Positions 11,236-36,668 of a DNA stretch of 61,440 nucleotides are shown here, one piece after another. The number at the start of each line of letters is the position of its first letter. The first letter of the stretch is position 1. The translations under genes were made by a program, and so were the position numbers. This stretch comes from a virus. The DNA is taken from the IMG/VR virus record IMGVR_UViG_3300050821_001277, positions 1 through 61,440 of that record; one strand, given 5' to 3'. The notes under the pieces are model-generated. The model did no database searches. It was given only the letters and a program-made list of their open reading frames with translations, and was not told the DNA's origin.

Positions 11236-11930
11236 ATCGTTGGAACCCCGCATGGAAAGTTAGGCTGAGGCGCACCGCCCGGAGTAAGGGTATTGAAGAG
11301 TGACGTTTGCTGCAAGACGTACACGCCATTCACCAGATTCGATGTAGTCCACCGCACAAGCCCGTAGCCCGAAGCGTAGACGTTCTGCTCTAAAGTCTCG
11401 CCATTCGGCCCCCAGATGTAGCTCTGCACAATACAGGGAGTCGTCGGGGCGATGTCCGTGCCGAAGTTAGGAATCACAAGACTTAGGGCATAAGGCCCCT
11501 CGACCTTGGTCTGGATTGGGCCTCCCAGATTAGCGGTTGTGAATTTGCCACAGGCCGAATACGATCTGTACGTTGAATCGCTGGTCTCAACCGGGACATT
11601 CTCGCCTGCCAGATAACGCGGCATCCACGCGATTCCGCCATTGGCACCGGGCCATGACGCCGAGGCGAACATCTTAAACATGCTCGGATCAGTCCATGAA
11701 GTAGACCCCCCTGAGACTAAGGGCGAGTCGATATCCGTGATTGACTGATAGATGTAATCCTCATCGAATGTGAGTGTATCCCACGGATAGCCTTGTGCGC
11801 CCTTCATCAGCCATATGGTCTTATCCTGCAAGAGCGTGTAGATCGGCTGACCACCGCCAGCAACTTCCATATGGAATTCTTGCGCCCACGCCTCATCAGG
11901 CAGGATGTAATTTAGAACGTCTGTGCTCAT
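11232..11930 (-). CDS. Hypothetical protein, 232 aa, probable virion component
   Basis: Beta-rich protein without signal peptide or membrane helix, rich in aromatic residues (DEAWAQEFHMEV, DEDYIYQSITD, FPCGVPTI at the end). Overlaps both neighbours by ATGA. Its place among fibers and the papain-like peptidase suggests a structural or receptor-binding role, but I recognise no family. Confidence 0.65.
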   Translation of the reverse strand: MSTDVLNYILPDEAWAQEFHMEVAGGGQPIYTLLQDKTIWLMKGAQGYPWDTLTFDEDYIYQSITDIDSPLVSGGSTSWTDPSMFKMFASASWPGANGGIAWMPRYLAGENVPVETSDSTYRSYSACGKFTTANLGGPIQTKVEGPYALSLVIPNFGTDIAPTTPCIVQSYIWGPNGETLEQNVYASGYGLVRWTTSNLVNGVYVLQQTSLFNTLTPGGAPQPNFPCGVPTI

Positions 11931-12238
11931 TGCTTCACCTGTAGGCTTGCCGCCGTCTGATTGATGCTAAAAGTGAATACTCCCGGCTTTTCAGGCACGC
12001 CGCTGATAATCAGACTTCCGCCCTGTGAAACCACCTGCAAACCCAAAGGGACGCCTGACGCGGAGAACGAACTTGGCGCTGCGCCAAGAGTGTAGCGATA
12101 CGTCTTGCCGACCGTCGCAGAGGGCAGGATGGTGGCTGGCGGGGGGACTGGAGGGCTGGGAGCATGACCGCCACAGGCTGAGAGAAACAGCACGGCGATC
12201 AGCGCGAGATGGAGACGGCGAATCAACCTAGAATGCAC
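11927..12238 (-). CDS. Lipoprotein with Ig-like (He_PIG type) domain
   Basis: 103 residues. The N-terminus is a lipoprotein signal (basic start, hydrophobic core, LSAC-G lipobox with Cys 22) followed by a Pro-rich linker and a short Ig-like domain (ATVGKTYRYTL, SGVPEKPGVFTF), as in He_PIG repeats. It should be anchored in an envelope membrane. It overlaps the preceding Ig-domain gene by 16 bp. Adhesion, superinfection exclusion or fiber tethering are all possible. Confidence 0.75.
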   Translation of the reverse strand: MHSRLIRRLHLALIAVLFLSACGGHAPSPPVPPPATILPSATVGKTYRYTLGAAPSSFSASGVPLGLQVVSQGGSLIISGVPEKPGVFTFSINQTAASLQVKQ

Positions 12239-12876
12239 CTCGTACCCGCTAAGCAGTTATCAATCTCAATCTCTACGAGCGTCATGTATCGGCATTGCCA
12301 TTCCGTGAAACCTATGGGACATGGCTGACTGTATGCAATTGGGAGTTTTGGCGGCTCTCGATAGCCCAGAACTGGCATTGGCGGCATGTACGTTTCTTCG
12401 CTAGGAACCATACATTTAACAATCTCTGCATGGTGACCGATTTGCTTATCAGCGTTCTCTTGGGCAATCATCAATTCACCTGAATTGCACTGGCGCATCG
12501 GGATTGTACTAGCCACCTGCATATCGACTTTCATCTCGGTTTTTGCCGATCCGTTCGCACCAGTAATGGTCACAGTAAAGTTCGACGTTCCGGTCGCAGT
12601 CGGCGTTCCGCTAAAGGTAATCGTGGAACCGGACAACGCCATCGTGATCCCCGCTGGCAAGGAACCGGAGGTAATGGCGGCCGCATAAGGTGTGATTCCA
12701 CCTGCGAGCGTTACGGAGGCGCTATAGGACGTATTTATCACGCCTTGAGCCAGGGGACCACCGGCCGGGTTAAATGTGATGCCCGGGTTGATTGTGATCG
12801 AGTAAGTAGCGGTTTGTGCGGCCAATGGCAGGGCAAGGAAGATACTCAACAGGGCGATAATTCCGAAACGTCGCAT
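12223..12876 (-). CDS. Secreted Ig-like (He_PIG) domain protein
   Basis: 217 residues. Sec signal peptide (LLSIFLALPLAAQ, cleavage probably before Gln 21), then one putative-Ig domain with the He_PIG signature (YSASVTLAGGITPYA, GSLPAGITMALSG, ITFSGTPTATGTSNF). A C-terminal region has six Cys (CNSG, CMVP, CPIGF, CRYM, CLAG, CILG), likely disulfides in an oxidising compartment. The start MRRFGI mirrors the MRRLLS start of the giant fiber just upstream. Confidence 0.8.
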   Translation of the reverse strand: MRRFGIIALLSIFLALPLAAQTATYSITINPGITFNPAGGPLAQGVINTSYSASVTLAGGITPYAAAITSGSLPAGITMALSGSTITFSGTPTATGTSNFTVTITGANGSAKTEMKVDMQVASTIPMRQCNSGELMIAQENADKQIGHHAEIVKCMVPSEETYMPPMPVLGYREPPKLPIAYSQPCPIGFTEWQCRYMTLVEIEIDNCLAGTRCILG

Positions 12877-12885
12877 AGTGTTCTC

Positions 12886-15800
12886 CTAAGGCTGTAACTG
12901 GATTCCCTGAGTCACTTGTACCCCCACTGTAATCGAAAAAGACCCCGATGTCGCGGGAATAATCGTGTAACTTGCCGACCCGACCGTGCTGTCCGATAAA
13001 CTCGCGCTCCCGGCTACTGCATAGACCGTTTCGCTAACAGGCACGGATATCGTACCACCATTGGCAAGCAGGGTTCCCGAAGTGCATCCTGTCCCTAAGC
13101 CGTTTGTCTGCGGGCTCCCAGTTGTGTTCCAGCAAATGATCGCCCCGGAAGAAACGGAGGAAATGACCACATTCGTGGTGCCTGCATAAATCCCCGTTCC
13201 CGGTATCAAACTTGGCTGAGCCGCTTGCCCCGTGGCCGAAAATAAGGCCCCTACGGCCTGAGACGAAGACATTGACACCGTGCAACTTCCACTCCCAGAG
13301 CAAGCCCCTGTCCAACTGTTTAAGATTTGCCCTGCGTTCGGATGCGCCGTCAAGGTGACCGTGGTGGTTATGGGGTAGTAGCCGACGCAGTTGATTGTCG
13401 CGCAGTTGATCTCTTGGTAGTTGTCCGTTACTGTTCCACCCACCCCGGAAGTTACAGTCAGGCTCGCTCCGCCTTGCAGGATTGCTTGAATGATCTGCTG
13501 GTAGGCAAGATGGTAATTCGCATAGTTAGCGACCGTCGAGTCGTAGGCGATCTGCCAGTCCTGATAGTAGAGTTCGAAGCGGTTGCCGCCACGCTCTATA
13601 GCATAGGGGATCAGTGGAACCAAGCTACCCATGACGCCTGCCGTGTACGGGCCAAAGTTAGCCGGGTTAGAGAACGTCCCTGTCTGAAATTCGTGGATCG
13701 GCGGAGCGGGATACTTGTTGTAGTTGTAGGCGTGATCGTTGGTGGGATAGGTATTGTTGGTCAGGCTCCCGCCAGAAGCGGTGCCGAAGTTTCCGAATGC
13801 GGTGATGTCGTAATTCTGCAAGCCTTGATCCGCGAGGCCGAATCCGTTCCCGATTGCAAGCGTGGCCGCAGCGTCGGCGAACGTGTAGGGAACTTGGAGA
13901 AGGCCGCCGTTCATCGTCTGGTTGACGCTGAATTGGCCGTTGGCTGCGACGATCTTGGCCTCGATGGTGCTCATGTAGGTGTTGACCCACACGTTCTGCA
14001 ACTGTGCGATGGTCGAAGGCGATACTTGCGTCTCCAGTTCCGTCACGGCGTAGGGAAGCCATTCGCCGTTCGTTCCACCTCCCACGGAAATGTACGCAAT
14101 CTTGCTGGCATAGGATGATGCCTTGATGTGAGCGATGGCCGCTGCAACCGCGTTCCCCCACGCAGTCATAAACGGTGTCTGGAAGGCCACGGGATAGGCT
14201 GAATTATCTACGCCCTGCTTGCATTGACCCGGAGGGATAGCGCCCGAGCCGGGGTAATCCGAATCCGCACAGGCATAGAGTTGCGGAGCGCTCAAAGTTG
14301 ATGCCCAGTTTGACGAGAATACATAGCATGGCGTGTCGGTGTTCTTGCCAGCGGAGTGCCCACCGGAGGAGATCGGAGCCAGATGGATGACGGCTGACTG
14401 TGCCCCGAATCCCAGTTGCGCGTTGATAACCGCATCGAAGTTCGTCCATGAGTAGCCTGCCGAAGCCGTGCAGCCACCGTTTGAAGTTTCCCAGCCGCCC
14501 AGTGTTGGACTGACTGGCGAATCCGCTGTCCAAGGAATGATGACCGCGAACCCACTAGCTACGCCGTACATCGCAGAGAGCGCAGGCCCGCCCGTATGCG
14601 GCGGCGAGAGTACATAGACGCCAGGAATGGGCGTGAGCGTGTAGGTCGCGCTCCCTGCCATGCTGTCGAGATATCCGGTGCCCCCTGCGACTGCGTATAA
14701 CGTTTCAGACACGGGCACGATCACTGGACCGACATAAAGCGTCGAGCCGGGCGCGCAGCCAGTTGTCCCGTTTGTAGCGGGCGAGCCTGTCGTGTTGTAG
14801 CAAATGATCGCCCCGGAACTTGCGGTCGCAATGGTCACGAACTGCGTGACATTGTACGTGCCGGAACTCGGGTTGAACGTTGGCGTGCTGGCCTGCGGCG
14901 TGGGAGGCGCGGTGCCAGCGTCGAGAGCCACAGCATAGGCGTCGATGCGAGGCGTGCCAAGATTGTCGTCGCCCTGCGCCCCAAGCATCGAACTAGCCCA
15001 AAGGAAGTGGTCGCCTTGAGATGTAGCATAGCCAATGGAGAACTGACCACCGAAGCCGGATTCTGGGCCTGACGTGCAGTTCGCTCCACCCGGTGAGCCG
15101 CAACTGTAAGTGTGCGTGAAAATAGCTGGGAGCGCACCGGAGGGATACGTGTAGTAGGGGAAGTTGCACATTACAACATTCTGCTGATACGGCGGAGACA
15201 GAATGCTGCCCTGCGAAGTCTGCATCGCGTCCGTAGCACCGCACCAAGGCCACGTGTCATCGCCTGTTGGATGCACCCAAGTGAAATGCTCGTCTGAGTA
15301 GATAGGGACTTGGCCAAATGTGGAGAATAGCGCCGTATTCGCCAATGGCCGAATGTTGGGACCGAACTGGCTCGGGGTTAGAACATTAGAGACGCCGACG
15401 CTTTCATGGCCACCGAAATTAAGCCCACCTGTACACGTGATATCGTTGGAGCAGGCCCACTGATCCCCCGAGGTCCCGACCTGCCAGATGCTCCACTGAT
15501 TTGCAATGGAGGAACCCGCGCACGCGCCTCCGGTCCACGGCCCGGTGATAGTTACCGCGACCTGCGTACCATCAAGCGATAATTCGGCATCGTGGATGCC
15601 ATGCAGCGTCGAGCCCTGAGAACCGTAGCAGCCAGACGATGCCAGCGTGCCTGTCGCCGGAGTAGAGGAGTTACATGGACCTGCGATGTGACCCGGACAA
15701 AAATCCCAGTACTGCCCCGTATTGAAATTGACCGAGGAGCACCCAAGCGATGCGTCATACACAAAGTACCAATCCCCGCTCGCCTGCCCTCCGGGAGCAA

Positions 15801-18075
15801 TGACCATTCCGAATCTGTTTCCCGCAGCGGTGAGCCCCAGAATGCTATTCGATGCGCCCGTAAAGGTCGTCACGCCGGGGCATATACCAGAGCCGAAGAA
15901 GTTCACGACGGGCGCTGTTAGCGTGTAGGTGTTGGTCGATGGATTGATCGTGTAATCGTTGATCGTGTCAAAACTCGATACCGAATAGAAGTCCACGTTG
16001 CTGACACGCGAGAATCCGAACGCCTGAGAGATTGCTGGCCCGGTTACCGGAGACACGATCTGCAACGCGCCAGCAGAGTTCGTGGCCGCGCTGAAGATGT
16101 ACTGGAATCCGCCATTCGCCTGAAACGCGACATAGGCCGGGGTCGTCGTGCAGCAGTTCACTGACGACATGTAATCGTTGTCGCCCCCGGAGTGCGTCAT
16201 ATTGCCGATAGATTTACCCTGCGGAAAGGTGTGGCAGTCGGTCATCCGCGTGATCGGATTCAGTGGCGAAGGATTCAGCGTCGTGTCGTAGGCAACGGAG
16301 TTTTGCAGGTTACCCGAGCACGTATCCGGCTTGTTGTACGGGACTCCATTCTGCGTACCCGCCGAGGAGGTCAGCAGGCAGGAGGTGATGGAGGAGCAGG
16401 ACGAAAGTGTGTAGGCAACACCATTGATCGTCATGTACCCGGCCCACGAAGTCGAGAACGGCGTGCCGGAGATATTGGTAACGATGGTGCCGAGGGTGTT
16501 TACCGTGCCGGACGGACTGCTGGAAGAGAAGATTGGCGCAATGGTGCCGGGATTAGCAGTCGAGCGCGTCGAGCACGGGTAAAGGGGAGGGCCACATGCA
16601 GGAGTCGCGCTGAATGGCCCAACGTTCCACGTCGAACCCCGCGCTACCGAGGTACGCCCCGGAGCCACGGCCTGCACCACGCCGTTGATCGTCTGCTCAG
16701 TGACCGCATAGGTCGTATCATTGGTGTTGAACGTGCCGCCCGATGGCGAGGTGCCCGTGGGCCAGTTCGATGTCAGGTTGACGCCAGCGCCGAATAGCGC
16801 TGTAGTGTTCGTGTTCGGAGTCCACTGATAGTAGTCGCTGGCGGTGAAGCCTTGTGCGGCGGCAGCGCTTGGGGTCTGGCCGATGTTGTTCGCGATGGTC
16901 AGCGTTCCGGCTGTGAACGATCCGTCCGTGATCGCCGCTGACGAGTTAATGCAGTGATTATTTGCAGCCCAAAAATTCCCAGTAAAAGCAGAACCGTGCC
17001 CAGCATTTTTAATGCAATAGGGCCACCCACCAGCAACAGTGTTGTTCCAAAAATACATGGACCCAGAAGGAGACGACTGAGGTACTTGTGGACCATTGTT
17101 CCCACTCCCTGCCGAGTTCCAGATGTTGTTCCAGACATAATCAATCTCCCCTCCGTTGCCGACCTGCAACCCCTCACATTCCGTGTTACCTGTGATGAGA
17201 TTATCATGGATGTAGTACGTATTGTTGCCCTGCGCCTGAATCGTCTCGATGCAGTTTTCGTGGGTTACGCCATCAAACGAGTTTGTGATCCCGGTGATTA
17301 AATTGCCGCCGATTTCCCCGTTTGAGTACGGTTTGATCGCGTTCGTCATCGCCTTGTAGACGGAGTACATCGAGTTAAACGATTGCGTGCCGCCACCCGA
17401 AACTCCGTCGCCATCGGAATTGTCGAAGACTCCGTACTGCCATGTGCAATTCGTGGTCGAGGTCGAACCGCACGCGCCCGATCCGCCGAGGTAAGAGACA
17501 AAGCCCTGAATGTCGATAGCCGTCGAGTGATTTGCGGACCAGCCGTGCATGTAGAAGTGATCGAAGGTGTGCGTCTGGCCGGACTGAATCGTGATTAAGC
17601 CACCGTCCGAGCAGGTTCCCGCCCAGTAAAGTCCCTTTGCTTCGATCCACTCCCAGTAAGTATTCGAGGCAGAAATATTGAGGAAGAAATTATGATAGTT
17701 GTTCGAGGAGCCGGGGCACTCCGTCCCGCCCATGACCGTGCCCCCCGCGTTCCACACCGGGCGATTCCATCCGGTCGGGCAGTTCGCCGTGTTGTACCAA
17801 GTCACATCGCGGACGAGGGAGGTATTCGAGTAGGTCCAGAGGATCGGGAAATTCGCGTTCGTCCACACGTCGCAGCCGCGGATCGTGAACTGGTCGCCGG
17901 AAACGTGAGTATATGTCCCGGTGAAGGTCCGCATCTCGGGCAAGTGCGCCCAAGGGGTCGATTCAGAGGTGCCACTGTTGGAGTCGGAGCCGGATGCCGC
18001 GACGTAGTAGTGCGACTGCCCCCACGCTGGGAGGGTGAGCGCCAGCCAGCACGCGATGGAGAGGAGACGGCGCAT
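12886..18075 (-). CDS. Giant secreted multi-domain fiber / beta-helix protein
   Basis: 1729 residues, the longest gene. Signal peptide (LLSIACWLALTLPAWGQ), then a right-handed beta-helix of pectate-lyase type (YYVAASGSDSNSGTSESTPW, many NN and HN turns) to about 430. A middle region repeats CSTRS/CSSITSC elements. A chitobiase C-terminal-like domain lies near 1060 (ATASSGAIICYNTTG), and a TIM-barrel-like region at about 1130-1500 carries YISVGGGTNGEW, recalling glycoside hydrolases. Then come an InlB-type repeat (GGTVTDNYQEINC, LNSWTGACSGSGSCTVSM) and a second chitobiase-C-like domain. Probably a surface-polysaccharide-binding or depolymerising appendage. Domain names are by eye. Confidence 0.8.
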   Translation of the reverse strand: MRRLLSIACWLALTLPAWGQSHYYVAASGSDSNSGTSESTPWAHLPEMRTFTGTYTHVSGDQFTIRGCDVWTNANFPILWTYSNTSLVRDVTWYNTANCPTGWNRPVWNAGGTVMGGTECPGSSNNYHNFFLNISASNTYWEWIEAKGLYWAGTCSDGGLITIQSGQTHTFDHFYMHGWSANHSTAIDIQGFVSYLGGSGACGSTSTTNCTWQYGVFDNSDGDGVSGGGTQSFNSMYSVYKAMTNAIKPYSNGEIGGNLITGITNSFDGVTHENCIETIQAQGNNTYYIHDNLITGNTECEGLQVGNGGEIDYVWNNIWNSAGSGNNGPQVPQSSPSGSMYFWNNTVAGGWPYCIKNAGHGSAFTGNFWAANNHCINSSAAITDGSFTAGTLTIANNIGQTPSAAAAQGFTASDYYQWTPNTNTTALFGAGVNLTSNWPTGTSPSGGTFNTNDTTYAVTEQTINGVVQAVAPGRTSVARGSTWNVGPFSATPACGPPLYPCSTRSTANPGTIAPIFSSSSPSGTVNTLGTIVTNISGTPFSTSWAGYMTINGVAYTLSSCSSITSCLLTSSAGTQNGVPYNKPDTCSGNLQNSVAYDTTLNPSPLNPITRMTDCHTFPQGKSIGNMTHSGGDNDYMSSVNCCTTTPAYVAFQANGGFQYIFSAATNSAGALQIVSPVTGPAISQAFGFSRVSNVDFYSVSSFDTINDYTINPSTNTYTLTAPVVNFFGSGICPGVTTFTGASNSILGLTAAGNRFGMVIAPGGQASGDWYFVYDASLGCSSVNFNTGQYWDFCPGHIAGPCNSSTPATGTLASSGCYGSQGSTLHGIHDAELSLDGTQVAVTITGPWTGGACAGSSIANQWSIWQVGTSGDQWACSNDITCTGGLNFGGHESVGVSNVLTPSQFGPNIRPLANTALFSTFGQVPIYSDEHFTWVHPTGDDTWPWCGATDAMQTSQGSILSPPYQQNVVMCNFPYYTYPSGALPAIFTHTYSCGSPGGANCTSGPESGFGGQFSIGYATSQGDHFLWASSMLGAQGDDNLGTPRIDAYAVALDAGTAPPTPQASTPTFNPSSGTYNVTQFVTIATASSGAIICYNTTGSPATNGTTGCAPGSTLYVGPVIVPVSETLYAVAGGTGYLDSMAGSATYTLTPIPGVYVLSPPHTGGPALSAMYGVASGFAVIIPWTADSPVSPTLGGWETSNGGCTASAGYSWTNFDAVINAQLGFGAQSAVIHLAPISSGGHSAGKNTDTPCYVFSSNWASTLSAPQLYACADSDYPGSGAIPPGQCKQGVDNSAYPVAFQTPFMTAWGNAVAAAIAHIKASSYASKIAYISVGGGTNGEWLPYAVTELETQVSPSTIAQLQNVWVNTYMSTIEAKIVAANGQFSVNQTMNGGLLQVPYTFADAAATLAIGNGFGLADQGLQNYDITAFGNFGTASGGSLTNNTYPTNDHAYNYNKYPAPPIHEFQTGTFSNPANFGPYTAGVMGSLVPLIPYAIERGGNRFELYYQDWQIAYDSTVANYANYHLAYQQIIQAILQGGASLTVTSGVGGTVTDNYQEINCATINCVGYYPITTTVTLTAHPNAGQILNSWTGACSGSGSCTVSMSSSQAVGALFSATGQAAQPSLIPGTGIYAGTTNVVISSVSSGAIICWNTTGSPQTNGLGTGCTSGTLLANGGTISVPVSETVYAVAGSASLSDSTVGSASYTIIPATSGSFSITVGVQVTQGIQLQP

Positions 18076-18423: not shown

Positions 18424-18431
18424 AGTTCCTC

Positions 18432-18491
18432 CTATTTGAACAACTTGCAGAAGCTATCCCGCTTCACCGTCACTTGATTCGCCGCATTCAG
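18432..18491 (-). pseudogene. Second, out-of-frame copy of the fiber C-terminus
   Basis: Directly after the stop of the 1117-residue fiber, another frame reads LNAANQVTVKRDSFCKLFK and stops at 18432-18434. The fiber itself ends INASDPVVVKRDSSCKLTVAN. The DNA of both copies shares GTGAAGCGGGA and TGCAAGTTG at the same spacing. This is a remnant of an alternative fiber end left by recombination or slippage. It has no start codon of its own. Confidence 0.75.
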
Positions 18492-21400
18492 TTTGCCACG
18501 GTCAACTTGCATGAACTGTCCCGCTTCACCACCACAGGGTCTGAGGCGTTGATCGTATAAAAACCAATTTCAAAGTTCGATGGCGCTGTTGCTCCTACTT
18601 CGATACCGCCATCAATAGAGAATGGGAGTTGCGTGGTTATGGTTCCAGTTGAGCCCGCATAAATGGCATATTCAGACGTGCCGCTCTGATTGCCGCTGGA
18701 TTGCGAAGCCGTGGCCGTTGGCGATGTCGCCACAGTGGCGTGCGCCTCCATGTTGGTAGCAGCAGTCGTGGCCGTCCCAAAGGCAATCCCAATCCCAGCG
18801 CCACTGGTAGATTGCACCGTTGTGCCAGAACACCGAAACGTGTAATTCGTCAGCGGAACGAGAGGTGGAAATACGAACAGGTAATCCGCCGTGCCCGGAC
18901 CCGTCGCGGTAATGCTGGAGCTGTCTGCGGTCAGGATTAGCGCTGGTCCGGGAGTGGGCGAGACGTAACTTTGCACGCCGGAATTAGAGAACCAATTAGT
19001 CCCGTTGGTGAAGATTCTTATTCCCTGCCCTGGAGGTAACAAGACCGTGCTGGTCGATCCGTTTAACGTTGTCCCTGACGTGCCGGGACAAGTAATGCTT
19101 CCGTATGGCGAAGTTTGGCCGGGGAGAACAATGGCGAAATATTGCGTGCCTGATGAGATTGCATATGTAATGCCGTGCGAGAATCCAACAGGATATCCGG
19201 GGTCAGGCAGGGCAGGGATGCAGTAAGTAGTTCCATTTGTAGCATCTGCCAGCACGGTGCCCTTATCGTCCGATGTTTGGCAAACATTCTCCACCACAGA
19301 GGCATTGACTGGAGTCGTGCAGGTAGTTTCAGAAGTCGTGACGGCTGGCTGAGGGGTGTAATAATTAGCTGAAGTCCCGGCATAAGGAACTATGGGGCCA
19401 TCGGAACAATGCAGTACGCCATATCCCGAATCGCCATAGATGCAATCAAAAAAGGCGCCGTCCCAAGTAACGGTTGCGGTTCCCTGAACCGTAGTCACTG
19501 GATAAGCGCTATCAGGCGGAGAGTTCATGGTCTGCCAAACTTGATTTGTGGTAGTTTGCCCTCCGGTAAGTTCAATTACCCCTAATCCAGTGGAGGTACT
19601 GAGCACGGAGGACAGCGCACGGATACAGGAGCCGCCACTAGCTCCCACGCACGCGGTTGTATTGATCGTGCCAGAGTCCGATGCCCCGGTTTGAGCCCAG
19701 GTTAACGTGGTTACATCCGTCGAGTCGTTACAAGACACGCTCGTTGTGGCGAAGGTTCCATTGAATGTCGTGTCGCCCGTAACGCCATACACGGTAACCA
19801 GCGTGCCCGGATAAACGCACAGATTCCCAGCATCATTGGAGAGATTCGGGGTTGTGGTGGCGGTCACGATATTGCTGGAACGCGAGATTGTCGCAAGGTT
19901 CACCGTCCATCCAGAAGCACGGTACACGGGGTCAATCACCGATAAAGACAGCGCAGTCGCATCCGCCACCAGGTCCGCGCCATTGGTGCCGTCGCTGAAT
20001 ACGCCGTCGATCTTCGTGTTCTGCGTATGTGGCCCGATGTAGACTCCAGTACCAGCATCACTGACCTGCGTACCCCACAACTGCACATCGTTCGCAAGCG
20101 AAGGACTGTCTCCTGCCACGATGACGCCGAACGACCCGGAAGGACGGTAGAAAATTGTCTGTTCCAGAGCCTTGCCATAAATCTTCGTCGAGCCGTAGTT
20201 GAACAGCGCGATTCCCGTTTGGCAGTTTTGCGCCTGCGTGTTGATGGTGGTTTCGCCCGAACCGCTACGGCCAGAGATCGACCAATTCACGGAGGATTGC
20301 GTGCCTGCACTGGTGGTCAATGTGCCCGTGGTCCCGCTGGTGACTGTCGCGATGGTGTAGGCGACACTATTGATGATAATCGGCGCATTCACATAATCCT
20401 GCGTGAACGATCCAAGACCGGAAGTGAATGTATCGACCGTGAAGCCAGTGCCGCTGGTGGTGATCGTTCCTGTGCCTGAAACCTGCCGCGAGTACCCAAG
20501 GTCAAGGTCAATGGAGTTCGGAATAACGTCTGTCGCACCGGAGTTCTGACAGTTCCCCTCGCCTCCTGAAATATATTCCGAAGCAATACGGCGCACTGTC
20601 TGGATGCGGGTCTTGGTATGGTAGGTGTAGATGTTGGTCATGAAAAAGAATTGACTAACACCATTCCCACCGTCGAGCGTCACACAGACGCCAACGTAAT
20701 AGTTCTCGCAAGTAATGTTCGTTAACGCGCCGTCCGTGAGGGCAATTACATCGAAGGCTCCTAACCCAGTTCCGGCGTTGTCTTGGAATGCCAGATTCTC
20801 CGCCTGAAAACCAAGAGCGTTGGCAGTTGAAGCATTGCCCATGATGTAGGCGTAATATGCGCCATTGGTGAGAATGGTTGCGCAACCGCCGCCACGGCCT
20901 ACTGTGCCTTCACCGATGAGACGGACGCCGTGATAGGTATAGGGGGATGGGCCGTTCGTCAGAGCGGCTGATGTGTAGTATGTTCCGCACGGAAAATAGA
21001 CGTTGCCCCCTTTGTACGATCCCGTCTGCGGAACGGCATTGATGGCAGCCTGAATCGCCGCCGTGTCATTCGTCGTTCCGTTGCCTGTTGCTCCATAAGC
21101 CTTGACGTTCAAGACGGGCAACCCGTTACTAAAGCACGGGAACTCCACGCCGCCGTTTACATCGCAATTCCAGCCTGAAACGGTTGAGTAAAAGTAATTC
21201 TGCCCAGCGGTCGGAGTGCCCGGAGTGGACCCTTGCAATAATGCCATGCAGTTATGGGCTGATCCACAGGCAGTGAGGGTGGTGGTACCAATATTCAGCG
21301 GCCCAGTGATATTCAACGAGCTAGAGCAAGATAAATTTCCCGCGATGGCATTCCATACGCAAGGCAATCCCGCGAACACCCCGGCGTTATTGTATTGGAG

Positions 21401-21841
21401 CTGCCCATTTGTCCCTCCGGGAGTCCCACCACTGCCCGCCCCTCCGAGTGTGACTGTGTATGGGCCGAAGGTCGTGGTTCCTATCGTGACGGTATAATCA
21501 TACTGTCCAGCTGGAGCCCAAAATCCAATATTGCCCTGCGGATCGCCTTGAGTCTGGCATGAGGATGTCGTTGCTGGTTGCGGGGTATCCTGTGCCCCGT
21601 TAGGACAAGCTACACCTGCGTAAGTGTAGGTCGTCGCATAATTCGTGCATGGGATTCCGGGGCCGCTATTTGCTGGCGATTGGCATACGGCAAGCACGGG
21701 AGAACTTCCAGCGAGATTGGCTTGCAAAAGCGGTGAATATTGGCTGCTCACCGTAGCAACAGGATTGTCATAGCGAACAAGTGCCTGCCCGAATGCAGGG
21801 CACGCCCAAGCCAGAAGGATGAAGCAGCGGATAAGTTTCAT
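18488..21841 (-). CDS. Secreted tail-spike-like protein with pectate-lyase-3 beta-helix
   Basis: 1117 residues. Signal peptide (CFILLAWACPAFGQ) then an N-terminal beta domain with several Cys. A pectate-lyase-3 entry motif lies near residue 245 (LNVKAYGATGNGTTNDTAAI, then GGNVYFPCGTYY) and leads into a long right-handed beta-helix, the fold of phage tailspike depolymerases. The C-terminal receptor-like region ends VVVKRDSSCKLTVAN. Cys pairs such as CQSPANSGPGIPC and CTTPVNASVVENVC suggest disulfides. No catalytic residues can be assigned by eye. See the duplicated C-terminal peptide just downstream. Confidence 0.85.
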   Translation of the reverse strand: MKLIRCFILLAWACPAFGQALVRYDNPVATVSSQYSPLLQANLAGSSPVLAVCQSPANSGPGIPCTNYATTYTYAGVACPNGAQDTPQPATTSSCQTQGDPQGNIGFWAPAGQYDYTVTIGTTTFGPYTVTLGGAGSGGTPGGTNGQLQYNNAGVFAGLPCVWNAIAGNLSCSSSLNITGPLNIGTTTLTACGSAHNCMALLQGSTPGTPTAGQNYFYSTVSGWNCDVNGGVEFPCFSNGLPVLNVKAYGATGNGTTNDTAAIQAAINAVPQTGSYKGGNVYFPCGTYYTSAALTNGPSPYTYHGVRLIGEGTVGRGGGCATILTNGAYYAYIMGNASTANALGFQAENLAFQDNAGTGLGAFDVIALTDGALTNITCENYYVGVCVTLDGGNGVSQFFFMTNIYTYHTKTRIQTVRRIASEYISGGEGNCQNSGATDVIPNSIDLDLGYSRQVSGTGTITTSGTGFTVDTFTSGLGSFTQDYVNAPIIINSVAYTIATVTSGTTGTLTTSAGTQSSVNWSISGRSGSGETTINTQAQNCQTGIALFNYGSTKIYGKALEQTIFYRPSGSFGVIVAGDSPSLANDVQLWGTQVSDAGTGVYIGPHTQNTKIDGVFSDGTNGADLVADATALSLSVIDPVYRASGWTVNLATISRSSNIVTATTTPNLSNDAGNLCVYPGTLVTVYGVTGDTTFNGTFATTSVSCNDSTDVTTLTWAQTGASDSGTINTTACVGASGGSCIRALSSVLSTSTGLGVIELTGGQTTTNQVWQTMNSPPDSAYPVTTVQGTATVTWDGAFFDCIYGDSGYGVLHCSDGPIVPYAGTSANYYTPQPAVTTSETTCTTPVNASVVENVCQTSDDKGTVLADATNGTTYCIPALPDPGYPVGFSHGITYAISSGTQYFAIVLPGQTSPYGSITCPGTSGTTLNGSTSTVLLPPGQGIRIFTNGTNWFSNSGVQSYVSPTPGPALILTADSSSITATGPGTADYLFVFPPLVPLTNYTFRCSGTTVQSTSGAGIGIAFGTATTAATNMEAHATVATSPTATASQSSGNQSGTSEYAIYAGSTGTITTQLPFSIDGGIEVGATAPSNFEIGFYTINASDPVVVKRDSSCKLTVAN

Positions 21842-21845
21842 TGGA

Positions 21846-23522
21846 TTAGTAAAGAGTGCAGGTCGAAGCGCCGATGGTCACATCCGAATTCGTGGACGGC
21901 GTGCCGTAGATCGTGAATGTTCCACTGCTTGCCCCGCTGGTCATGGTGCCGGAAGAAAGCCACGGTACGTTAGAAGTGGCGGATGCGATGCTTCCCCCTA
22001 CCAGCATGTTGGTCGGGGTTGTGGATGAAACGTTTGAACTGCTCCCGGCAGTGCTCGTTCCTGCTAGCCCGGTGTAGATAATCGCATTGCCGACTGCGTT
22101 GGTTGGAGAGGCGGAAAAAGCAATTCCCAGAGTCAACCCTATAGCCGTAGTGGTCGTGCTATAGGTGCCCTGACATAGCCAACTTAATGTCTGGGAGCTA
22201 TTTGGAAGCGTCCATTGGCATATCGTGGTTTGAGCGGCGGTGAGCGAGATGCCTGCATTCGTTATTTTGCACTGGCCAGATTGAATCAGCGGAGTCGAGG
22301 ATTTTAGATATTCCGTCGTGCTGCTGCCTGCGACCGTGAAGATTGCCCCGACCGAACCATTCCCCTGATTGCTCTGAGAAAATCCGATATCGCCAGCATC
22401 TCCCACAATCTGCCCATTGGAAGTTCCGCACGAGGTCAGTGAACCAGCAGCCAGCCAACATCCGACTCCGGTCGTTAACACAAATCCTGTATTGGATGCA
22501 GAGCCGGTGGCCTGTTCACTCGGCGCTGTCGTGGTTCCAACTGGCAGCGTAAGTAAAGTCGTAACGACTGGCGAACCAAATGTTTTATTCGTCAGGGTTT
22601 GAGTCGCCGCAAGTGTAACCACAGTGTCACTCGTTCCAGGAAAAGTGAAGGTTGTGCTGTCTGTTCCAGAAAACCCTAGCGTATTGTTTATAGTGAGCGT
22701 TTTGGAAGTCGTACCGCCTGCAATTGAGAACCCAGTGGTCAGCGCAGCGAATGTAAGGCCATTGACCGTGGTCGGTGTAATAGCCCCTAGCGTAAATGTA
22801 AAAGCTGGAGTTGTTGTCTGAGTGGCCACAGTGGCGGATACGCCATTGGCCGTGGTAACCGAGGCACTGGTCACGGTTCCAACCCCACTAGGGAGATCGG
22901 CAGATGTCAAGGCTCTGAATGCCGGGGCCGCTGCCGATCCCGTTGTCGGCCCCGCCAAGACCGTGTTGGCCGTCTGTGTCAAAGCCGTAGCCGTTACGGT
23001 TCCAGAAGTCGTCACCGCCGTGCTTGGAGTTGAACTGTCAACGATGCCGTCGCCTGTGAACGTTACGCTGGTTACCGTTCCACTGGAGGTGCTGCCGCTT
23101 CCAAATAGAGACGCGGAAATTATCGGGCTGGTCTTGATATAGATGGTTGCCGTCCCACTGCTGTAGGAGGTAGGGCACAACTCGAACAAATCCCAGTTCG
23201 AGACATCGAGCAACTTGTAATTGCCAGCCGTTGTGATGGTCGATTGCGACGAAGATGAGGTTGATCCCGCCGGAACTACCTTCGTCGCTCCATCTGCCTG
23301 GCCGCCAATAGCGACCTTGGGGGTAAATGTTATCGAGAAAGTTCCGTTTACCGTGATGCCAACGGAACCAGCCCCGCTGATGTCCACTTGAGCGCAGGTC
23401 GTCACGGAACCGTTCGGGTTGGTCACTGCATTTGCAGCGGTAGCAGTGAATGGTCCATAGACAACTTGCCCGATGAGGGGAGGCCCAAGGGCAAGAAAGA
23501 GAATCAAGAGTAATTTACGCAT
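21846..23522 (-). CDS. Secreted Ser/Thr/Gly-rich fiber protein
   Basis: 558 residues with a signal peptide (LLLILFLALGPPLIGQ). The shaft is low-complexity Thr/Ser/Gly/Ala. It contains VLAGPTTGSAAAPAFRALTS and ATQTLTNKTF, segments recurrent in phage side-fiber proteins, and a C-terminal domain with paired Cys (CKITN, CQWTL, CTLY). ATG follows AAAGGAGTTAT. Probably trimeric and part of a host-binding appendage. Confidence 0.8.
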   Translation of the reverse strand: MRKLLLILFLALGPPLIGQVVYGPFTATAANAVTNPNGSVTTCAQVDISGAGSVGITVNGTFSITFTPKVAIGGQADGATKVVPAGSTSSSSQSTITTAGNYKLLDVSNWDLFELCPTSYSSGTATIYIKTSPIISASLFGSGSTSSGTVTSVTFTGDGIVDSSTPSTAVTTSGTVTATALTQTANTVLAGPTTGSAAAPAFRALTSADLPSGVGTVTSASVTTANGVSATVATQTTTPAFTFTLGAITPTTVNGLTFAALTTGFSIAGGTTSKTLTINNTLGFSGTDSTTFTFPGTSDTVVTLAATQTLTNKTFGSPVVTTLLTLPVGTTTAPSEQATGSASNTGFVLTTGVGCWLAAGSLTSCGTSNGQIVGDAGDIGFSQSNQGNGSVGAIFTVAGSSTTEYLKSSTPLIQSGQCKITNAGISLTAAQTTICQWTLPNSSQTLSWLCQGTYSTTTTAIGLTLGIAFSASPTNAVGNAIIYTGLAGTSTAGSSSNVSSTTPTNMLVGGSIASATSNVPWLSSGTMTSGASSGTFTIYGTPSTNSDVTIGASTCTLY

Positions 23523-23532
23523 ATAACTCCTT

Positions 23533-23904: not shown

Positions 23905-25373
23905 TTCAGTTGTTCTCCTACTGAGACATTCTGCGTGCAGGTATTCGAAGTCGAGGCCACGCTAAAGCTGCAGTACGGGGCGAAATAGAGAGGGCTCGTC
24001 CAGGTCGAACTTCCGGAAATCGCAGTGTAAATCGGGGTTCCTGTGCTGGTATCCACCTGGGGATTGCAGGTAAATGTTCCGCTGCCACCCGAAGCCGTAG
24101 CGACTACGCAGGTAAACGTCATCGCCACCGAGAAATCACTGGAGTTGGAACTGGTGGAGACGACGTACCCTCCGGTGCCGCACATTCCAGAGCTGTTTCC
24201 GAAACAAAAGCCGACCTGCTGATTGCTCGATCCGCCGCCGGGAACGACCGTTATCTGGGCCGTGATACGGAAGGTTTTCGAGACCGCATTCTGGGTGTTG
24301 GCTGGGAATATGATTTGCTTCAGTTGCTGCGCCGAAGTTGTGTTGGCGGATGTCGTGGTAGCCACTCCGCTGGCAGAAACAATGATCGCGTTTCCTCCGC
24401 CGCTCCCCCCGGAAGCGAGTGCAATGGTGTAGGTTCCCGCGCCGGAATTGGTCGAGAGCACGATGCCGACTTCCTGCGTGCCCTGCGGTAAAGGCGTCGG
24501 GGGAGCCAGTCCACTGTCGTGGCAATCGCCCGCCGTCGTGGTTGAGATTTCTACATAGTCCCCGGCTGTCGTCGCTCCATCGAAGATGCACGAAACTGTT
24601 CCGCTCTGCTGAATCGTGGCGTTGCCCGTAATTCCGGCTCCCGCCGTGACGATGCCAATAACTCCTCCGGTTGCCGTAATCGGTGACACAGTCGCTGTCG
24701 AGGGCGCTCCGGTCAAGGTCGCCAACCCATTGAGAACGGTAGCCGTTGAGGAATTGTTCGCGATGCAGACGTAAGTTCCCGGCCCGTTCGTCATCCCGCA
24801 GCCGTTGACGATCGGTGTGGTAATCTGCGGACTGAGATTGCCGAGAATGTTCTGGGTTGTGCTTGGGAACGTGAGGGTAACATTGCCGGACGGTTGAGGG
24901 AAATTTAGCGTGGTTTGATTCGGCGCGGTGCCAGTCACGATCTGAAACGACAGCGGCGATATAACAATCGGCTCCGCGAAGGTTTGGGTCGCGTACCAAG
25001 TGTTAGGAAGATTCAGTAGGCCATAGTATCCCGTGACCCCGTTAGTGCTTGAAACCGTCTGGCCGTACTGACAGTTGACTCCGCCGTAGGTTTTGATGAC
25101 GATGGTGTAAATTTCATTTTCTGCCAGCCAGATGTTGGCCGTTCCGCCAGCCGTTAGTGGAACTATATATGGATTCTCCGTCGTTCCCGAGTAGTCCGTA
25201 TAAGTTACTTGGGGATTGGTCGTATTATTGGCGAATGTGAGAACGCATCCGAAAGCGTTTGGTTGGCCATTCTGCAAGTACGAAGTGAAGACAGGTTGCG
25301 GGCTCAGTGTCACAGGAACTTGAGCAAACGCCGCGATACAGGCCATCAGAATAAATAGCGCGAGTTTCTTCAT
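23901..25373 (-). CDS. Secreted fiber protein, 490 aa
   Basis: Signal peptide (LALFILMACIAAFAQ). The N-terminal domain has VTYTDYSGTTENPYIVPLTA, a motif common at the start of phage tail fibers, a Thr/Gly-rich shaft (FPQPSGNVTLTFPST) follows, and the C-terminal domain carries Cys pairs (CFGNSSGMCG, CSFSVASTSNTC). First of the run of exported fibers after the ejection proteins, so possibly the fiber attached nearest to the tail. ATGA overlap on both sides. Confidence 0.8.
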   Translation of the reverse strand: MKKLALFILMACIAAFAQVPVTLSPQPVFTSYLQNGQPNAFGCVLTFANNTTNPQVTYTDYSGTTENPYIVPLTAGGTANIWLAENEIYTIVIKTYGGVNCQYGQTVSSTNGVTGYYGLLNLPNTWYATQTFAEPIVISPLSFQIVTGTAPNQTTLNFPQPSGNVTLTFPSTTQNILGNLSPQITTPIVNGCGMTNGPGTYVCIANNSSTATVLNGLATLTGAPSTATVSPITATGGVIGIVTAGAGITGNATIQQSGTVSCIFDGATTAGDYVEISTTTAGDCHDSGLAPPTPLPQGTQEVGIVLSTNSGAGTYTIALASGGSGGGNAIIVSASGVATTTSANTTSAQQLKQIIFPANTQNAVSKTFRITAQITVVPGGGSSNQQVGFCFGNSSGMCGTGGYVVSTSSNSSDFSVAMTFTCVVATASGGSGTFTCNPQVDTSTGTPIYTAISGSSTWTSPLYFAPYCSFSVASTSNTCTQNVSVGEQLN

Positions 25374-29477: not shown

Positions 29478-29479
29478 AG

Positions 29480-30361
29480 TTAAGACCCCGCCAGCAGGGG
29501 TGAGTTCGGGTTATAGGCAGGAGGAGCCGCTACCGTTGCGTATGGGTTAGCCGCCGTTGCGCCAGCGGGGAATCCATTGTCTGGGCTGTAGAAATCTTCG
29601 TCGCTTAGGCTTCCACTATTAAATCCGCCTCCGTAACTGCCGAGCGCTATTCCCTGATCGGCACTGTTGGCGATGCCGTTAAACATATTGGAATATGCGT
29701 TCGCCGCGCCGATGTAACCTGCCGCTTGTGCAGCGCCTTTATTGTTGATTTGCGAGGCTTGCTGCTGGCCCCCGGTGAGGTAGAGGTTCGAGAGATTGTT
29801 CGCCGCCGCCTGCCCGAACTGACCGAGTTGTGCTGTCGAATTGAGTCCGGTCTGGACGCCCTGCCCTGCGGCACTGAGGTTCGTTTGGTACTGATTCAGA
29901 GCATTTTGATATGCCTGCTGATACGTCGTCGTCGCTAAGCCTTGCCCGTACTTCTGCAAAGCGGTCCCCGTATTTCCCGAAAGCAGATTGCCTGTCGCAG
30001 CGGCGTTCTCATTGATCGCCTGCGTTCCGGTTTGGAGATTGAACTGATAACCCGGTGTTTGTTGCGCTTGCGCAAGAGTCGGAGCAGTGAATGGATTATT
30101 GATAAGGTTGGCATAAGCATTTGCCGAAGTCTGCCCCAGTTGCTGATAAGGCTGTTCGGCTTGCTGCTGGCCGGCCCATTCATTCTGCTGAAAACTTATC
30201 CCTTGTTGCTGATTCTGCTGCTCAAGTTGCTGCGCCTGCTGTGCTGCTGTTTCTTGCGCCTGCGCTGCATTCCCCGCAGCATTGGCTTGCATGACGCCAC
30301 CAGCGACACTACTGGCCGCCCCAATTGCAGCAACCGCTAGAATAGGACCAGTGATCGACAT
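29480..30361 (-). CDS. DNA-transfer / pilot-type virion protein, 293 aa
   Basis: A hydrophobic N-terminus (ILAVAAIGAASSVAGGVM) is followed by a Gln/Ala/Asn-rich helical body (QEQ and QQQ runs, AGQQQAEQPYQQLG) and a Gly/Ser/Pro end. Proteins of this make-up at this position are annotated as DNA transfer or ejection proteins in podoviruses (P22 gp7 position). The N-terminal segment may insert in the membrane rather than act as a Sec signal. Confidence 0.72.
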   Translation of the reverse strand: MSITGPILAVAAIGAASSVAGGVMQANAAGNAAQAQETAAQQAQQLEQQNQQQGISFQQNEWAGQQQAEQPYQQLGQTSANAYANLINNPFTAPTLAQAQQTPGYQFNLQTGTQAINENAAATGNLLSGNTGTALQKYGQGLATTTYQQAYQNALNQYQTNLSAAGQGVQTGLNSTAQLGQFGQAAANNLSNLYLTGGQQQASQINNKGAAQAAGYIGAANAYSNMFNGIANSADQGIALGSYGGGFNSGSLSDEDFYSPDNGFPAGATAANPYATVAAPPAYNPNSPLLAGS

Positions 30362-30362
30362 A

Positions 30363-31024: not shown

Positions 31025-31362
31025 GCGCTTTTGTACCAGTCCGTTCCGTCAGACTTGATTTTGAAGCTGCCTCCTAGCGCCGTCAAAGTATAAGGACCAA
31101 GAGGAAGATTCGCACCCTTAAGTGTGAACGTATTGTCATCTGCCGAAATCTTTATGTAGGTGATTTCTTGGTTCTGGTTCGTTTGCCCCGTAGTGGTATC
31201 CAGCCCCGCCGCAGGGGGCGCTTCCGTATACGAACCGTTCGACGTATCTACTTTATTCAGGGGCGCAGATTGTTGAGTCTCTAACTCCCAGAATTGCATG
31301 GGCTGGGAAAGATCGGCAAAACGCAAGGGCGGAGGGCGACGTGTTATCTGCGTAGTGGGCAC
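31021..31362 (-). CDS. Hypothetical virion-region protein, 113 aa
   Basis: A flexible Pro/Thr/Gln-rich N-terminal half is followed by a beta-rich half (EITYIKISADDNTFTLKGAN, then LTALGGSFKIKSDGTDWYKS). The last phrase recurs in the 302-residue secreted protein (YNCKSDGNWYKSG), so both may end in a related small beta module. Coupled by 4 bp to the ACP gene and by 1 bp to the gp10-like hub. Possibly a tail-tip or plug protein. Confidence 0.65.
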   Translation of the reverse strand: MPTTQITRRPPPLRFADLSQPMQFWELETQQSAPLNKVDTSNGSYTEAPPAAGLDTTTGQTNQNQEITYIKISADDNTFTLKGANLPLGPYTLTALGGSFKIKSDGTDWYKSA

Positions 31363-32891
31363 TATGTGATCTTCCGAAGTTGCTCAGAGATTCGCTCTCC
31401 CGGCTTATAGGCGTACTGCCCATCTTCCGTCCTTGCCGTCAGGAAAGCATCGCATATCCTCACGGGAACAGGATCGCTACCCCTCAAGAAATACTGCCGC
31501 ATTCGAGAACGGCCAAGCTTGACCTTTCGCGCGCGAACATTCGACACTCCCGCTTGCCCAATTGATAGATAGTAGTCGTTACTGCGTTGCGTAAGGCGGT
31601 CGATCCAGTACAGGATGACCTGCGGTGCCCTCGGCTGATTGCCGTCCAGCAGCGGAGGAATCGGCCCAACTCCCATCTGGATGTCGAATTCTACTTCGTC
31701 ATGGTATAGCCATTTGTTCTCTACCGAGATTTGCGGCCCTCCGCGCTCCCAGATAAGCGGATTACCGAAGTCCTCATAGATGTTGATGGACATCTCGTAG
31801 ATATTCCCAGAGAGAGGATCGCCAACGAGATGCATTCCCATAAATTCCATGTGCGACATTGAACGATGAGCAATGAACGTTCCGGTCCTCTGATTCCAGA
31901 AGGCTCTCTTGTGCCACAACGAGGTAAAGAAGTCATAGCACCATGTCTCGTTTGCCGTTGGAAAGCGGATCATCAGGAACTTGTGTCCCTGATCTTCATA
32001 CGCATAGCTCACCGCATCCGCGATGGTGGAGTAGGATTGCAGGGCAAACTCGACTGCCAGAGTCGAAATCCTTATTCCGACATTCTGTCCCATCATCTTC
32101 ACCACGCCGCTGCCGCGCTCACTCTGCTCAATCCAGCAAAACGTATCGTTCGCCTGTACGGTCCCGAACGTCGCAGCGCAGCCATCTTCGAGGAAGGCCC
32201 CCTGGATTGGGATGAATGGCGGATAGCCCGCCCCGCAGTCGTAATAGCCGATGATCTTCTTCCCGGAGAGAAACCAAACGATATCGTGATCGAATTTCAG
32301 GGACACGATGTTGTCAGGAAAGCGAGAGATTGTTGAGATAAACAGCCCGCTCCATGTCGTGCCGTCTTCGAGATTTGAGACCTGAAACGTGTTCGAGTCC
32401 TGAATTACCGCGAAAAAGTATCCATCACAGAAGTCGATTTGCAACACTGGCCCGTTGAATTGTGCCATGTCCACGGCCAAGAAGCTATTCGCAGGATGAT
32501 TCGCGCCGTTTGAGTCAGTGAAGGCAGTGAGCACAAAGATGAAGAGATCGCCGTTCGACAGAATCAGCAAGTGCGTCTGGCAGCAGAAAATTTGTGTTGG
32601 GGTAACAGGCGTTACGTTTAGCGTTCCCCAGTTCGTATAGGTCCCATTGGTCAGAAGTTCGTAGAAACTAGCTCCAGCCACGAATCCGCGCCCATTGACC
32701 TGAAATTCCCAAGGGATAGATGACTCTGGGAGCGTGTACTTTGTTGCGAGGCCGGGACTTGGCATCAACGTAATTGCCGACTTTGCACCAGCCGTCTCGG
32801 GAGTTTCCGGGATTCGATTGATGCAGGTCTCATTGTCAACGTTTGGCGACTGTAATTGATATGCGCCAGAATTGAATCCGAAGCGGGCGAT
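31362..32891 (-). CDS. P22 gp10-like tail hub / DNA stabilisation protein, probable ATC start
   Basis: Beta-propeller-like protein of the phage stabilisation family (NGDLFIFVL, DFCDGYFFAVIQDSNTFQVS, MSHMEFMGMHLVGDPLSGNI), which forms the hexameric hub below gp4 and closes the head. The first ATG/TTG opening (32768) would remove a well-formed N-terminus reading ARFGFNSGAYQLQSPNVDNE. That extension runs back to an ATC at 32889-32891, exactly six bases after a perfect AGGAGG, with no ATG, GTG or TTG available before the in-frame stop. I therefore place the start at ATC 32891 (509 residues; P22 gp10 has 472). A sequencing error is the alternative. Confidence 0.75.
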   Translation of the reverse strand: MARFGFNSGAYQLQSPNVDNETCINRIPETPETAGAKSAITLMPSPGLATKYTLPESSIPWEFQVNGRGFVAGASFYELLTNGTYTNWGTLNVTPVTPTQIFCCQTHLLILSNGDLFIFVLTAFTDSNGANHPANSFLAVDMAQFNGPVLQIDFCDGYFFAVIQDSNTFQVSNLEDGTTWSGLFISTISRFPDNIVSLKFDHDIVWFLSGKKIIGYYDCGAGYPPFIPIQGAFLEDGCAATFGTVQANDTFCWIEQSERGSGVVKMMGQNVGIRISTLAVEFALQSYSTIADAVSYAYEDQGHKFLMIRFPTANETWCYDFFTSLWHKRAFWNQRTGTFIAHRSMSHMEFMGMHLVGDPLSGNIYEMSINIYEDFGNPLIWERGGPQISVENKWLYHDEVEFDIQMGVGPIPPLLDGNQPRAPQVILYWIDRLTQRSNDYYLSIGQAGVSNVRARKVKLGRSRMRQYFLRGSDPVPVRICDAFLTARTEDGQYAYKPGERISEQLRKIT

Positions 32892-32943
32892 GACTAACCT
32901 CCTACCTTGGATCGTGGTCGTCTAGTTCGGTAAAAAGCAAGCA

Positions 32944-33310: not shown

Positions 33311-33311
33311 T

Positions 33312-34121: not shown

Positions 34122-34131
34122 AAGAAATAAA

Positions 34132-34174
34132 TGGCCTCAGATGTTCCGATTGCTCGGCTCCCCTTCTGAGGCCA
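34132..34174 (-). terminator. Rho-independent terminator between head and tail genes
   Basis: A perfect 10-bp stem (TGGCCTCAGA with TCTGAGGCCA, loop 23 bp) followed on the minus strand by TTTATTT. It lies in the 83-bp gap after the BIG2 head-region gene and 10 bp before the gp4-like gene, so it probably attenuates rather than ends late transcription. Confidence 0.7.
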
Positions 34175-34204
34175 TAGCGCTAAATGCGCCATTCGGGGAA
34201 AAGG

Positions 34205-34816: not shown

Positions 34817-34819
34817 GGC

Positions 34820-35717: not shown

Positions 35718-35725
35718 AGGTCTCC

Positions 35726-35752
35726 TTAAAAACAGCGGGGCCGAAGCCCCGC
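35726..35752 (-). terminator. UUCG-loop rho-independent terminator after capsid genes
   Basis: On the minus strand GCGGGGC-TTCG-GCCCCGC is followed by TGTTTTTA: a 7-bp GC stem with the very stable UUCG tetraloop and a U-tract. It closes the coat plus secreted-protein segment, and the next gene's AAGGAG lies right after the U-tract. It should make coat transcripts more abundant than tail transcripts. Confidence 0.85.
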
Positions 35753-35759
35753 CATGAAT

Positions 35760-36668
35760 TTACTGACCGTACAGTGCCACCGATGCCGAGATGTTGGCTG
35801 CGGTATCGGAAGTAGCCGTCACGAACTGGAAGGTTAGAACGTTCCCCGCCACGATTGCTACCCCGTGAGTGGTATCGCTGCAGGTCGTGCCCGCCGCCGC
35901 GATGGTACAAGTCAACGCGGTTGCGCTGCCATTAACGTACAGCGTAAGTACATCCTTGCTGGTGCCTCCAACGACCGCTGCCGAAGAGTTGACATACAAG
36001 TCTGCCAACTCTCCCGAACTGGTTGCAATCCAACTAAAAGTTGCCGTGGATGCGCCAGAGCAGGCCGCGCCATTGAGGTATTCGGTAGCTGCGGAACCGA
36101 CAGTCCCAGTACAGAAAGCCGCAGGCGTGCTTCGTTCGCCCCCAGAGGCTGAACCTACGCCAGACTTGTACCAGTTTCCATCAGATTTGCAGTTGTAGCG
36201 ATTCCCATCCGTGAGATTGATCCACGGAAGGATGCTGGGAAGCGTTGCGCTCCCCGTGGCATTCGCCCAGCAAGTCCCGGCCACGTCGAAGCCCTGATAG
36301 AGATTTGGGCGTCCAACAAAGACGGTTCTCCCTGACGCATGACCTTCCGCTTTGGTTCCATGTGATCCGCGTTGTACGAGGATGCACGTCCCGCTAGGCG
36401 GAATCGAGTTAGTTACCACGTCCATCGCTTCCGTATCCACCCACAGGGTCGTGCCTACAGAAACCGTGGCATAGACATTCGTGAGTGAAGCCAGACAGAC
36501 ATTGGAAGTGTAGGGCGAGCTGCCCCCAATCCCAAACGTCAACGGGGTCGGAATGGCAGTTGAAAGAGTTGTCGTGGAAAGAGTCTGCGCGCCTTGAATC
36601 TGTGCGAAGGAGGAGACAGCCAAAGCCGCAAACACCGCAACTGAGAAGATTCTCTTAAGCATTTTCAT
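35760..36668 (-). CDS. Secreted protein encoded directly behind the coat gene
   Basis: 302 residues with a clear Sec signal (RIFSVAVFAALAVSSFAQ, cleavage before Gln). The mature part is Thr/Ser/Ala/Gly-rich beta structure with about ten Cys (CLASL, CILVQRG, CTIAAAGTTC) and YNCKSDGNWYKSG. Expressed with the coat protein and ended by the UUCG terminator, so made in quantity. A head fiber or decoration protein would normally stay in the cytoplasm, which conflicts with the signal peptide. Family not recognised. Confidence 0.75.
   Translation of the reverse strand: MKMLKRIFSVAVFAALAVSSFAQIQGAQTLSTTTLSTAIPTPLTFGIGGSSPYTSNVCLASLTNVYATVSVGTTLWVDTEAMDVVTNSIPPSGTCILVQRGSHGTKAEGHASGRTVFVGRPNLYQGFDVAGTCWANATGSATLPSILPWINLTDGNRYNCKSDGNWYKSGVGSASGGERSTPAAFCTGTVGSAATEYLNGAACSGASTATFSWIATSSGELADLYVNSSAAVVGGTSKDVLTLYVNGSATALTCTIAAAGTTCSDTTHGVAIVAGNVLTFQFVTATSDTAANISASVALYGQ

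Follow-up and report, generated by a model that had tools for sequence, protein, structure and literature searches.

The tailspike-type protein, the fiber-like proteins and a coat-linked protein of a P22-like short-tailed soil virus are encoded with Sec signal peptides. A virion-docking domain lies directly behind the predicted cut of the tailspike-type protein, and the predicted mature proteins have a paired-cysteine signature. The virus is represented by the record IMGVR_UViG_3300050821_001277, of which positions 1 to 61,440 were analysed (61,440 nucleotides; hereafter the window). In textbooks, tailed phages are put together entirely in the cytoplasm. We propose, with a probability of about two in three for the model as a whole, that the tagged proteins are exported by the Sec pathway, fold oxidatively and dock onto the particle at or after lysis.

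Signal peptides among the late genes

The minus strand of the window encodes a P22-like short-tail module of the podovirus type, with portal, scaffold, coat, gp10-like closure and gp7-like ejection protein in P22 order (matches to phrog_156, 8865, 283, 578 and 598), and the late-gene order is that of Xanthomonas phage PBR31. The portal protein (39414..41717; phrog_156, E 4e-82), the scaffold (37945), the gp10-like head closure Hc3 (31362..32768; phrog_578, E 2e-68) and the gp7-like DNA ejection protein (29480..30361; phrog_598, E 8e-18), which is also free of cysteine, have no signal peptide. The same is true of the P22-like coat protein (36684..37934; phrog_283, E 3.8e-50), which served as an internal control; it has relatives among annotated phages only at about 30% identity or less, and a few viral contigs from the environment contain close relatives. 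The replication arm includes a HerA-like DUF87 ATPase (57026–58678). ORFs at both ends of the window (61125–61440 and 1–625) encode the same short repeat, of the NSRVEAW/ARG type. Simply joining the ends gives no one continuous frame in the repeat register, and the ends do not form a direct terminal repeat; for these reasons the window was probably cut inside a repeat-bearing region, which does not imply circularity.

Signal peptides were called with a heuristic predictor of our own, not with SignalP, in 51 window genes. Nine were flagged: seven with type-I peptides (named here by first coordinate: 12223, 12886, 18488, 21846, 23533, 23901 and 35760) and two with lipoprotein signals (11927 and 39208). 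None was flagged among the portal, coat, scaffold, tail-hub, ejection and replication genes. The type-I peptides have the basic n-region, hydrophobic core and small residues at −3 and −1 of substrates of Sec and signal peptidase I, and in all seven the last residue before the predicted cut is small and the next one is Gln; the weakest cleavage site is that of 21846 (PLIG). A preliminary description had named six of these genes as having a basic start, a hydrophobic core and a small-residue–Gln site, and had called for a prediction on each; all six were positive, with an uncharged core in every one. The two additional genes that it had described as lipoprotein-like or signal-bearing correspond to 23533 and 11927, and a third ORF, 39208, of lipoprotein type, can now be added.

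As a measure of chance, the predictor flagged 1.2% of internal segments taken from these same proteins. Among shuffled N-termini it flagged 3.6% when they came from the late genes tested and 16% when they came from the signal-bearing proteins. Chance hydrophobic N-termini were rejected as an explanation on account of these rates, the uninterrupted series of tagged genes in relatives (seven in a row in contig L017) and the cysteine parity described below. Mis-called starts were also rejected, because the peptides are conserved in relatives and no window gene has, close to the mature N-terminus, an internal in-frame start codon with a ribosome-binding site, from which a leaderless form could be made.

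Six of the seven genes at 12223–25373 encode type-I peptides, and the seventh gene with such a peptide, 35760, adjoins the coat gene; all the flagged genes lie on the minus strand. The tailspike-type protein (23901..25373, 490 aa) consists of a signal peptide (residues 1–17; MKKLALFILMACIAAFA/QV, the slash marking the predicted cut here and below), a head-binding domain at about residues 18–115 and a fiber body without a match. The exported fiber-like protein of 558 aa (21846..23522; signal peptide 1–18, MRKLLLILFLALGPPLIG/QV) has an N-terminal relative in L017 which also carries a signal peptide. The tailspike-like protein of 1117 aa (18488..21841; signal peptide 1–18, MKLIRCFILLAWACPAFG/QA) contains the start of a pectate-lyase-like beta-helix (PF12708, E 2.8e-12), and its N-terminal domain, with four conserved cysteines, is found behind signal peptides in dozens of viral contigs; its gene has no evident ribosome-binding site. 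The largest of these proteins, fiber- or adhesin-like and 1729 aa long (12886..18075; signal peptide 1–19, MRRLLSIACWLALTLPAWG/QS), has host-type CHB_HEX_C_1 and InlB B-repeat domains. A protein of 217 aa (12223..12876; signal peptide 1–20, MRRFGIIALLSIFLALPLAA/QT) has a He_PIG Ig-like domain (PF05345, E 3e-8), and the lipoprotein-type product of 11927..12238 (FLSA/C) has a weak He_PIG match. The other lipoprotein-type ORF (39208..39417) is small and lies between scaffold and portal. At the end of the exported-fiber block a papain-family cysteine peptidase without a signal peptide is encoded (10468–11253; PF00112, E 3e-10; phrog_16701).

The remaining small signal-bearing protein (23533..23904, TTG start, 123 aa; MRALLAFCLLYGSAWA/QE) has a weak match to DUF5658 and is probably a small membrane protein rather than a fiber. 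With this exception, the earlier claim that most fibers and a capsid-linked protein carry Sec signal peptides holds. The capsid-linked protein (35760..36668, 302 aa) has a signal peptide at residues 1–22 (MKMLKRIFSVAVFAALAVSSFA/QI), giving a predicted mature N-terminus at Q23. The peptide is kept in five relatives of 60–73% identity, with an invariant A22/Q23 junction, and one relative has a leader longer by 11 residues; relatives of the fibers are tagged too. The product is likely to be an outer capsid decoration or a head fiber. Its AlphaFold2 model was poor (mean pLDDT 41) and a fold search returned nothing meaningful. Inspected by eye, the C-termini of 23901, 18488, 21846 and 35760 show no hydrophobic membrane anchor.

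A virion-docking domain behind the predicted cut

The predicted mature N-terminus of 23901 opens directly with a head-binding domain homologous to that of P22-type tailspikes (gp9); the beta-helix start of 18488 is a second likeness to these proteins. A profile of the 23901 family matched the tailspike head-binding domain of PDB 7eeq (E 6e-7) and the tail spike 9vyg (8e-6); tblastn aligned the domain to the tail spike of PBR31, at its N-terminus (E 4e-5). Among 36 distinct tagged sequences of the domain, that of the window included, 16–77 residues with a hydrophobic core precede it. The spikes or fibers of P22, PBR31, Rhodoferax phage P26218 and VvAW1, unlike those of the window, have no signal peptide, and in PBR31, P26218 and a group of other untagged contigs the start Met coincides with the predicted cleavage point to within a few residues. 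Since untagged relatives start at the junction, the signal peptide stands directly ahead of the virion-docking domain. Docking domain and beta-helix body are matched in different proteins: 18488 has PF12708 but another N-terminal domain, and the docking domain of 23901 is followed by no body match. The AlphaFold2 model of the docking domain was poor (mean pLDDT 56) and gives no basis for Cys–Cys distances; nothing meaningful came from its fold search.

The arrangement of this domain bears on whether the tagged proteins ever join virions. They might instead be exported to work on the infected cell or on what surrounds it, by shielding receptors against superinfection or re-adsorption, by trimming exopolysaccharide or by altering the surface of a lysogen. 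Export is well supported, some tagged proteins have host-type domains, and a precedent exists in WceF of Pantoea stewartii, an exported bacterial enzyme with a tailspike fold (PMC7949094). WceF shares a tailspike-like beta-helix and an export signal with the window proteins; it is, however, bacterial and Tat-exported, whereas they are viral, have Sec-type signals and include a virion-docking domain. All 36 distinct sequences of the 23901 family keep the tailspike head-binding domain at the mature N-terminus, 23901 lies where a tailspike gene is expected in the late operon, an arrangement shared with PBR31, and a phage lacking these genes in its virion would have no evident spike; a role solely outside the virion is thus unlikely.

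The docking domain directly behind the 23901 cleavage site also disfavours a mere recruitment of host surface proteins, one of three options raised in the preliminary description. That option contains a grain of truth, in that host-type domains (CHB_HEX_C_1, InlB B-repeat and He_PIG) occur in parts of 12886 and 12223. The other two, export by infected cells and joining of the particle outside the cytoplasm or at lysis, fit best when taken together. In the filamentous phage M13, the virion protein that binds the receptor, pIII, is known to be made with a cleavable signal sequence and exported by Sec (PMC8310372). The window proteins, which we infer to be virion components, are likewise signal-bearing and of receptor-binding type; pIII remains attached to the inner membrane by an anchor, for assembly by extrusion, whereas they lack a C-terminal hydrophobic anchor and belong to a tailed phage.

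Cysteine parity as a signature of oxidation

The mature type-I proteins of the window have 8 (35760), 12 (23901), 0 (23533), 8 (21846), 28 (18488), 42 (12886) and 6 (12223) cysteines, so that the count is even in every one, zero included; the earlier remark that several have paired cysteines thus understated the pattern. Relatives of 35760 have 6 or 8. Cysteine makes up 2.3% of the tagged proteins of the window against 0.65% of its untagged late proteins, and 2.1% against 0.5% in the phage Tunturi 1. Across related viral loci, the count is even in 92 of 103 non-redundant tagged proteins that contain cysteine (p 2e-17), as compared with 119 of 239 untagged proteins. With one tagged protein per 25%-identity cluster, 74 of 84 are even.

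Steps in cysteine number between disjoint pairs of homologs follow the same rule, with 7 even and 0 odd steps for tagged proteins against 12 and 46 for untagged ones (Fisher 7e-5). In this comparison cleavage was refined to the small-residue–Gln site, and the contigs with untagged docking domains (L057–L073) were left out; in a first test with crude, unrefined cleavage sites, 7 of the 10 steps were even and 3 odd. Genes of the contigs were called by a simple script, the noise of which should weaken a parity signal and not create one.

In the docking domain itself, 34 of the 36 tagged sequences have two cysteines, two have none and none has a single one, while all 18 untagged domains are free of cysteine. 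Some pairs have been relocated, to positions 74/85 in L109 and 31/38 in L115. A Fisher test of signal peptide against cysteine gives 2e-12, a value not to be taken at face value because the domain tree needs only about two changes of signal-peptide state and hence offers few independent contrasts; the parity tests carry the weight. Tagged domains without cysteine occur at L106:6089-7423 and L116:4860-6428, where the signal peptide may possibly have been acquired recently. In L103, an untagged, cysteine-free protein with a head-binding domain (8851–9981) adjoins a tagged, cysteine-rich fiber (10001–13588).

Disulfides formed in an oxidising compartment would explain the cysteine pattern simply. 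Parity that holds across many relatives indicates a real passage through such a compartment, and export and oxidative folding of the tagged proteins are, judged from their sequences, very likely. An alternative is that the hydrophobic N-termini are retained as anchors or oligomerisation segments, without export, and that no disulfides form until the proteins have left the cell. This would agree with the normal, wholly cytoplasmic assembly of tailed-phage virions, and extracellular oxidation would produce disulfides too. It is nevertheless improbable: the peptides have a full n-h-c architecture and a conserved small-residue–Gln junction while the core sequence varies freely, relatives without the hydrophobic stretch start at that junction, and the fibers of Tunturi 3 and 4, phages of the same host genus as Tunturi 1, reach the same outside yet are poor in cysteine. 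Just as improbable is a split fate, in which an unexported share of the spikes is assembled in the cytoplasm and an exported share serves outside, for although it would reconcile signal peptides with cytoplasmic assembly, the window genes lack the internal starts mentioned above and the consistently even, high cysteine content suggests that the functional form is oxidised.

Relatives of the virus and assembly in two compartments

Tunturi 1 (PP887698) is described as a podovirus of the acidobacterium Tunturiibacter (PMC11924767). Its fiber block includes five tagged proteins, gp12, gp13, gp14, gp16 and gp17, with 20, 10, 20, 1 and 32 cysteines. A profile comparison of gp12 with the docking domain reached a probability of 3%, on which no relationship is claimed. 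Tunturi 1 and 2 resemble the window in having such a signal-bearing, cysteine-rich block with mostly even counts, and differ from it in their head and tail-hub genes. The main text of that paper mentions neither signal peptides nor mass spectrometry, and neither virion proteomics nor protein localisation was found for any of the phages treated here. In the open-access literature, to which the search was confined, no description of signal peptides on tailed-phage spikes was found. Among other phages of the same host genus, the fibers of Tunturi 3 (a podovirus) and Tunturi 4 (a siphovirus) are untagged, with about 0.35% cysteine, and the stretch of the jumbo phage Tunturi 5 that was read has no tagged proteins; on these grounds we rejected the idea that the trait is general among phages of the host phylum. 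Nor is the trait a feature of all P22-like phages, as P22, VvAW1 and CV-1-33 are untagged in the late genes checked.

Single tagged tail-region proteins occur in PBR31, Burkholderia phage BcepC6B, P26218 and Acetobacter phage phiAX1, all four with even cysteine counts. In PBR31 and P26218 the tag is found not on the main spike but only on a protein next to it. PBR31 orf035 and BcepC6B gp19, annotated as structural protein or tail fiber, resemble the window proteins in their Sec signal peptides and even cysteines; unlike in the window, only one tagged fiber was found in each of these phages, beside an untagged main spike or fiber. The ‘putative structural protein’ of PBR31 (L034:16154-16963) lies directly after the untagged spike and has a Sec signal peptide, as does its BcepC6B homolog gp19. 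Among environmental contigs, L017 has an unbroken run of signal-bearing genes (11427–17545), seven when the preceding gene (9992–11419) is counted, which is more than in the window. The hub genes are P22-like in most contigs with tagged fibers and Tunturi-1-like in L023, and the trait is therefore common to two or more podovirus lineages.

No prophage turned up in two scans of bacterial genomes, so that the host of the window is not fixed directly. An acidobacterial host is suggested by the cleavage style, before Gln, and by a region that 12886 shares with gp17 of Tunturi 1 (37% over 89 aa, with CHB_HEX_C_1 in both).

The P22 tailspike is the last piece of its particle and can be added to heads in vitro. 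In the window, the tagged parts are those that could be added last and from outside, and the parts needed earlier are untagged; the model is proposed for this reason. Head, portal, tail hub and ejection proteins would be made in the cytoplasm as usual, while tailspikes, accessory fibers and the coat-linked protein would be sent through the host Sec pathway. Signal peptidase would cut before Gln, leaving the head-binding domain of the spike at the new N-terminus, and the spikes would reside in the periplasm and fold there with disulfide bonds. Lysis would then breach the inner membrane, DNA-filled heads would meet the waiting spikes, and spike docking would be the last step of assembly, at or after lysis.

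We think it rather probable that assembly in two compartments is a general strategy of short-tailed soil phages, probably those of Acidobacteriota, with at least two origins among podovirus lineages. Annotation would be affected too, as a signal peptide in a phage genome is usually taken for the mark of a lysis or conversion gene. If the model is true, the parts that bind the receptor mature away from the rest of the particle, in a different compartment, and do not meet it before lysis, which would bear on the evolution of host range, superinfection control and spike stability. For study, such spikes would have to be expressed without their leader and in an oxidising compartment. The cultured phages Tunturi 1 and 2 make the model of exported spikes directly testable.
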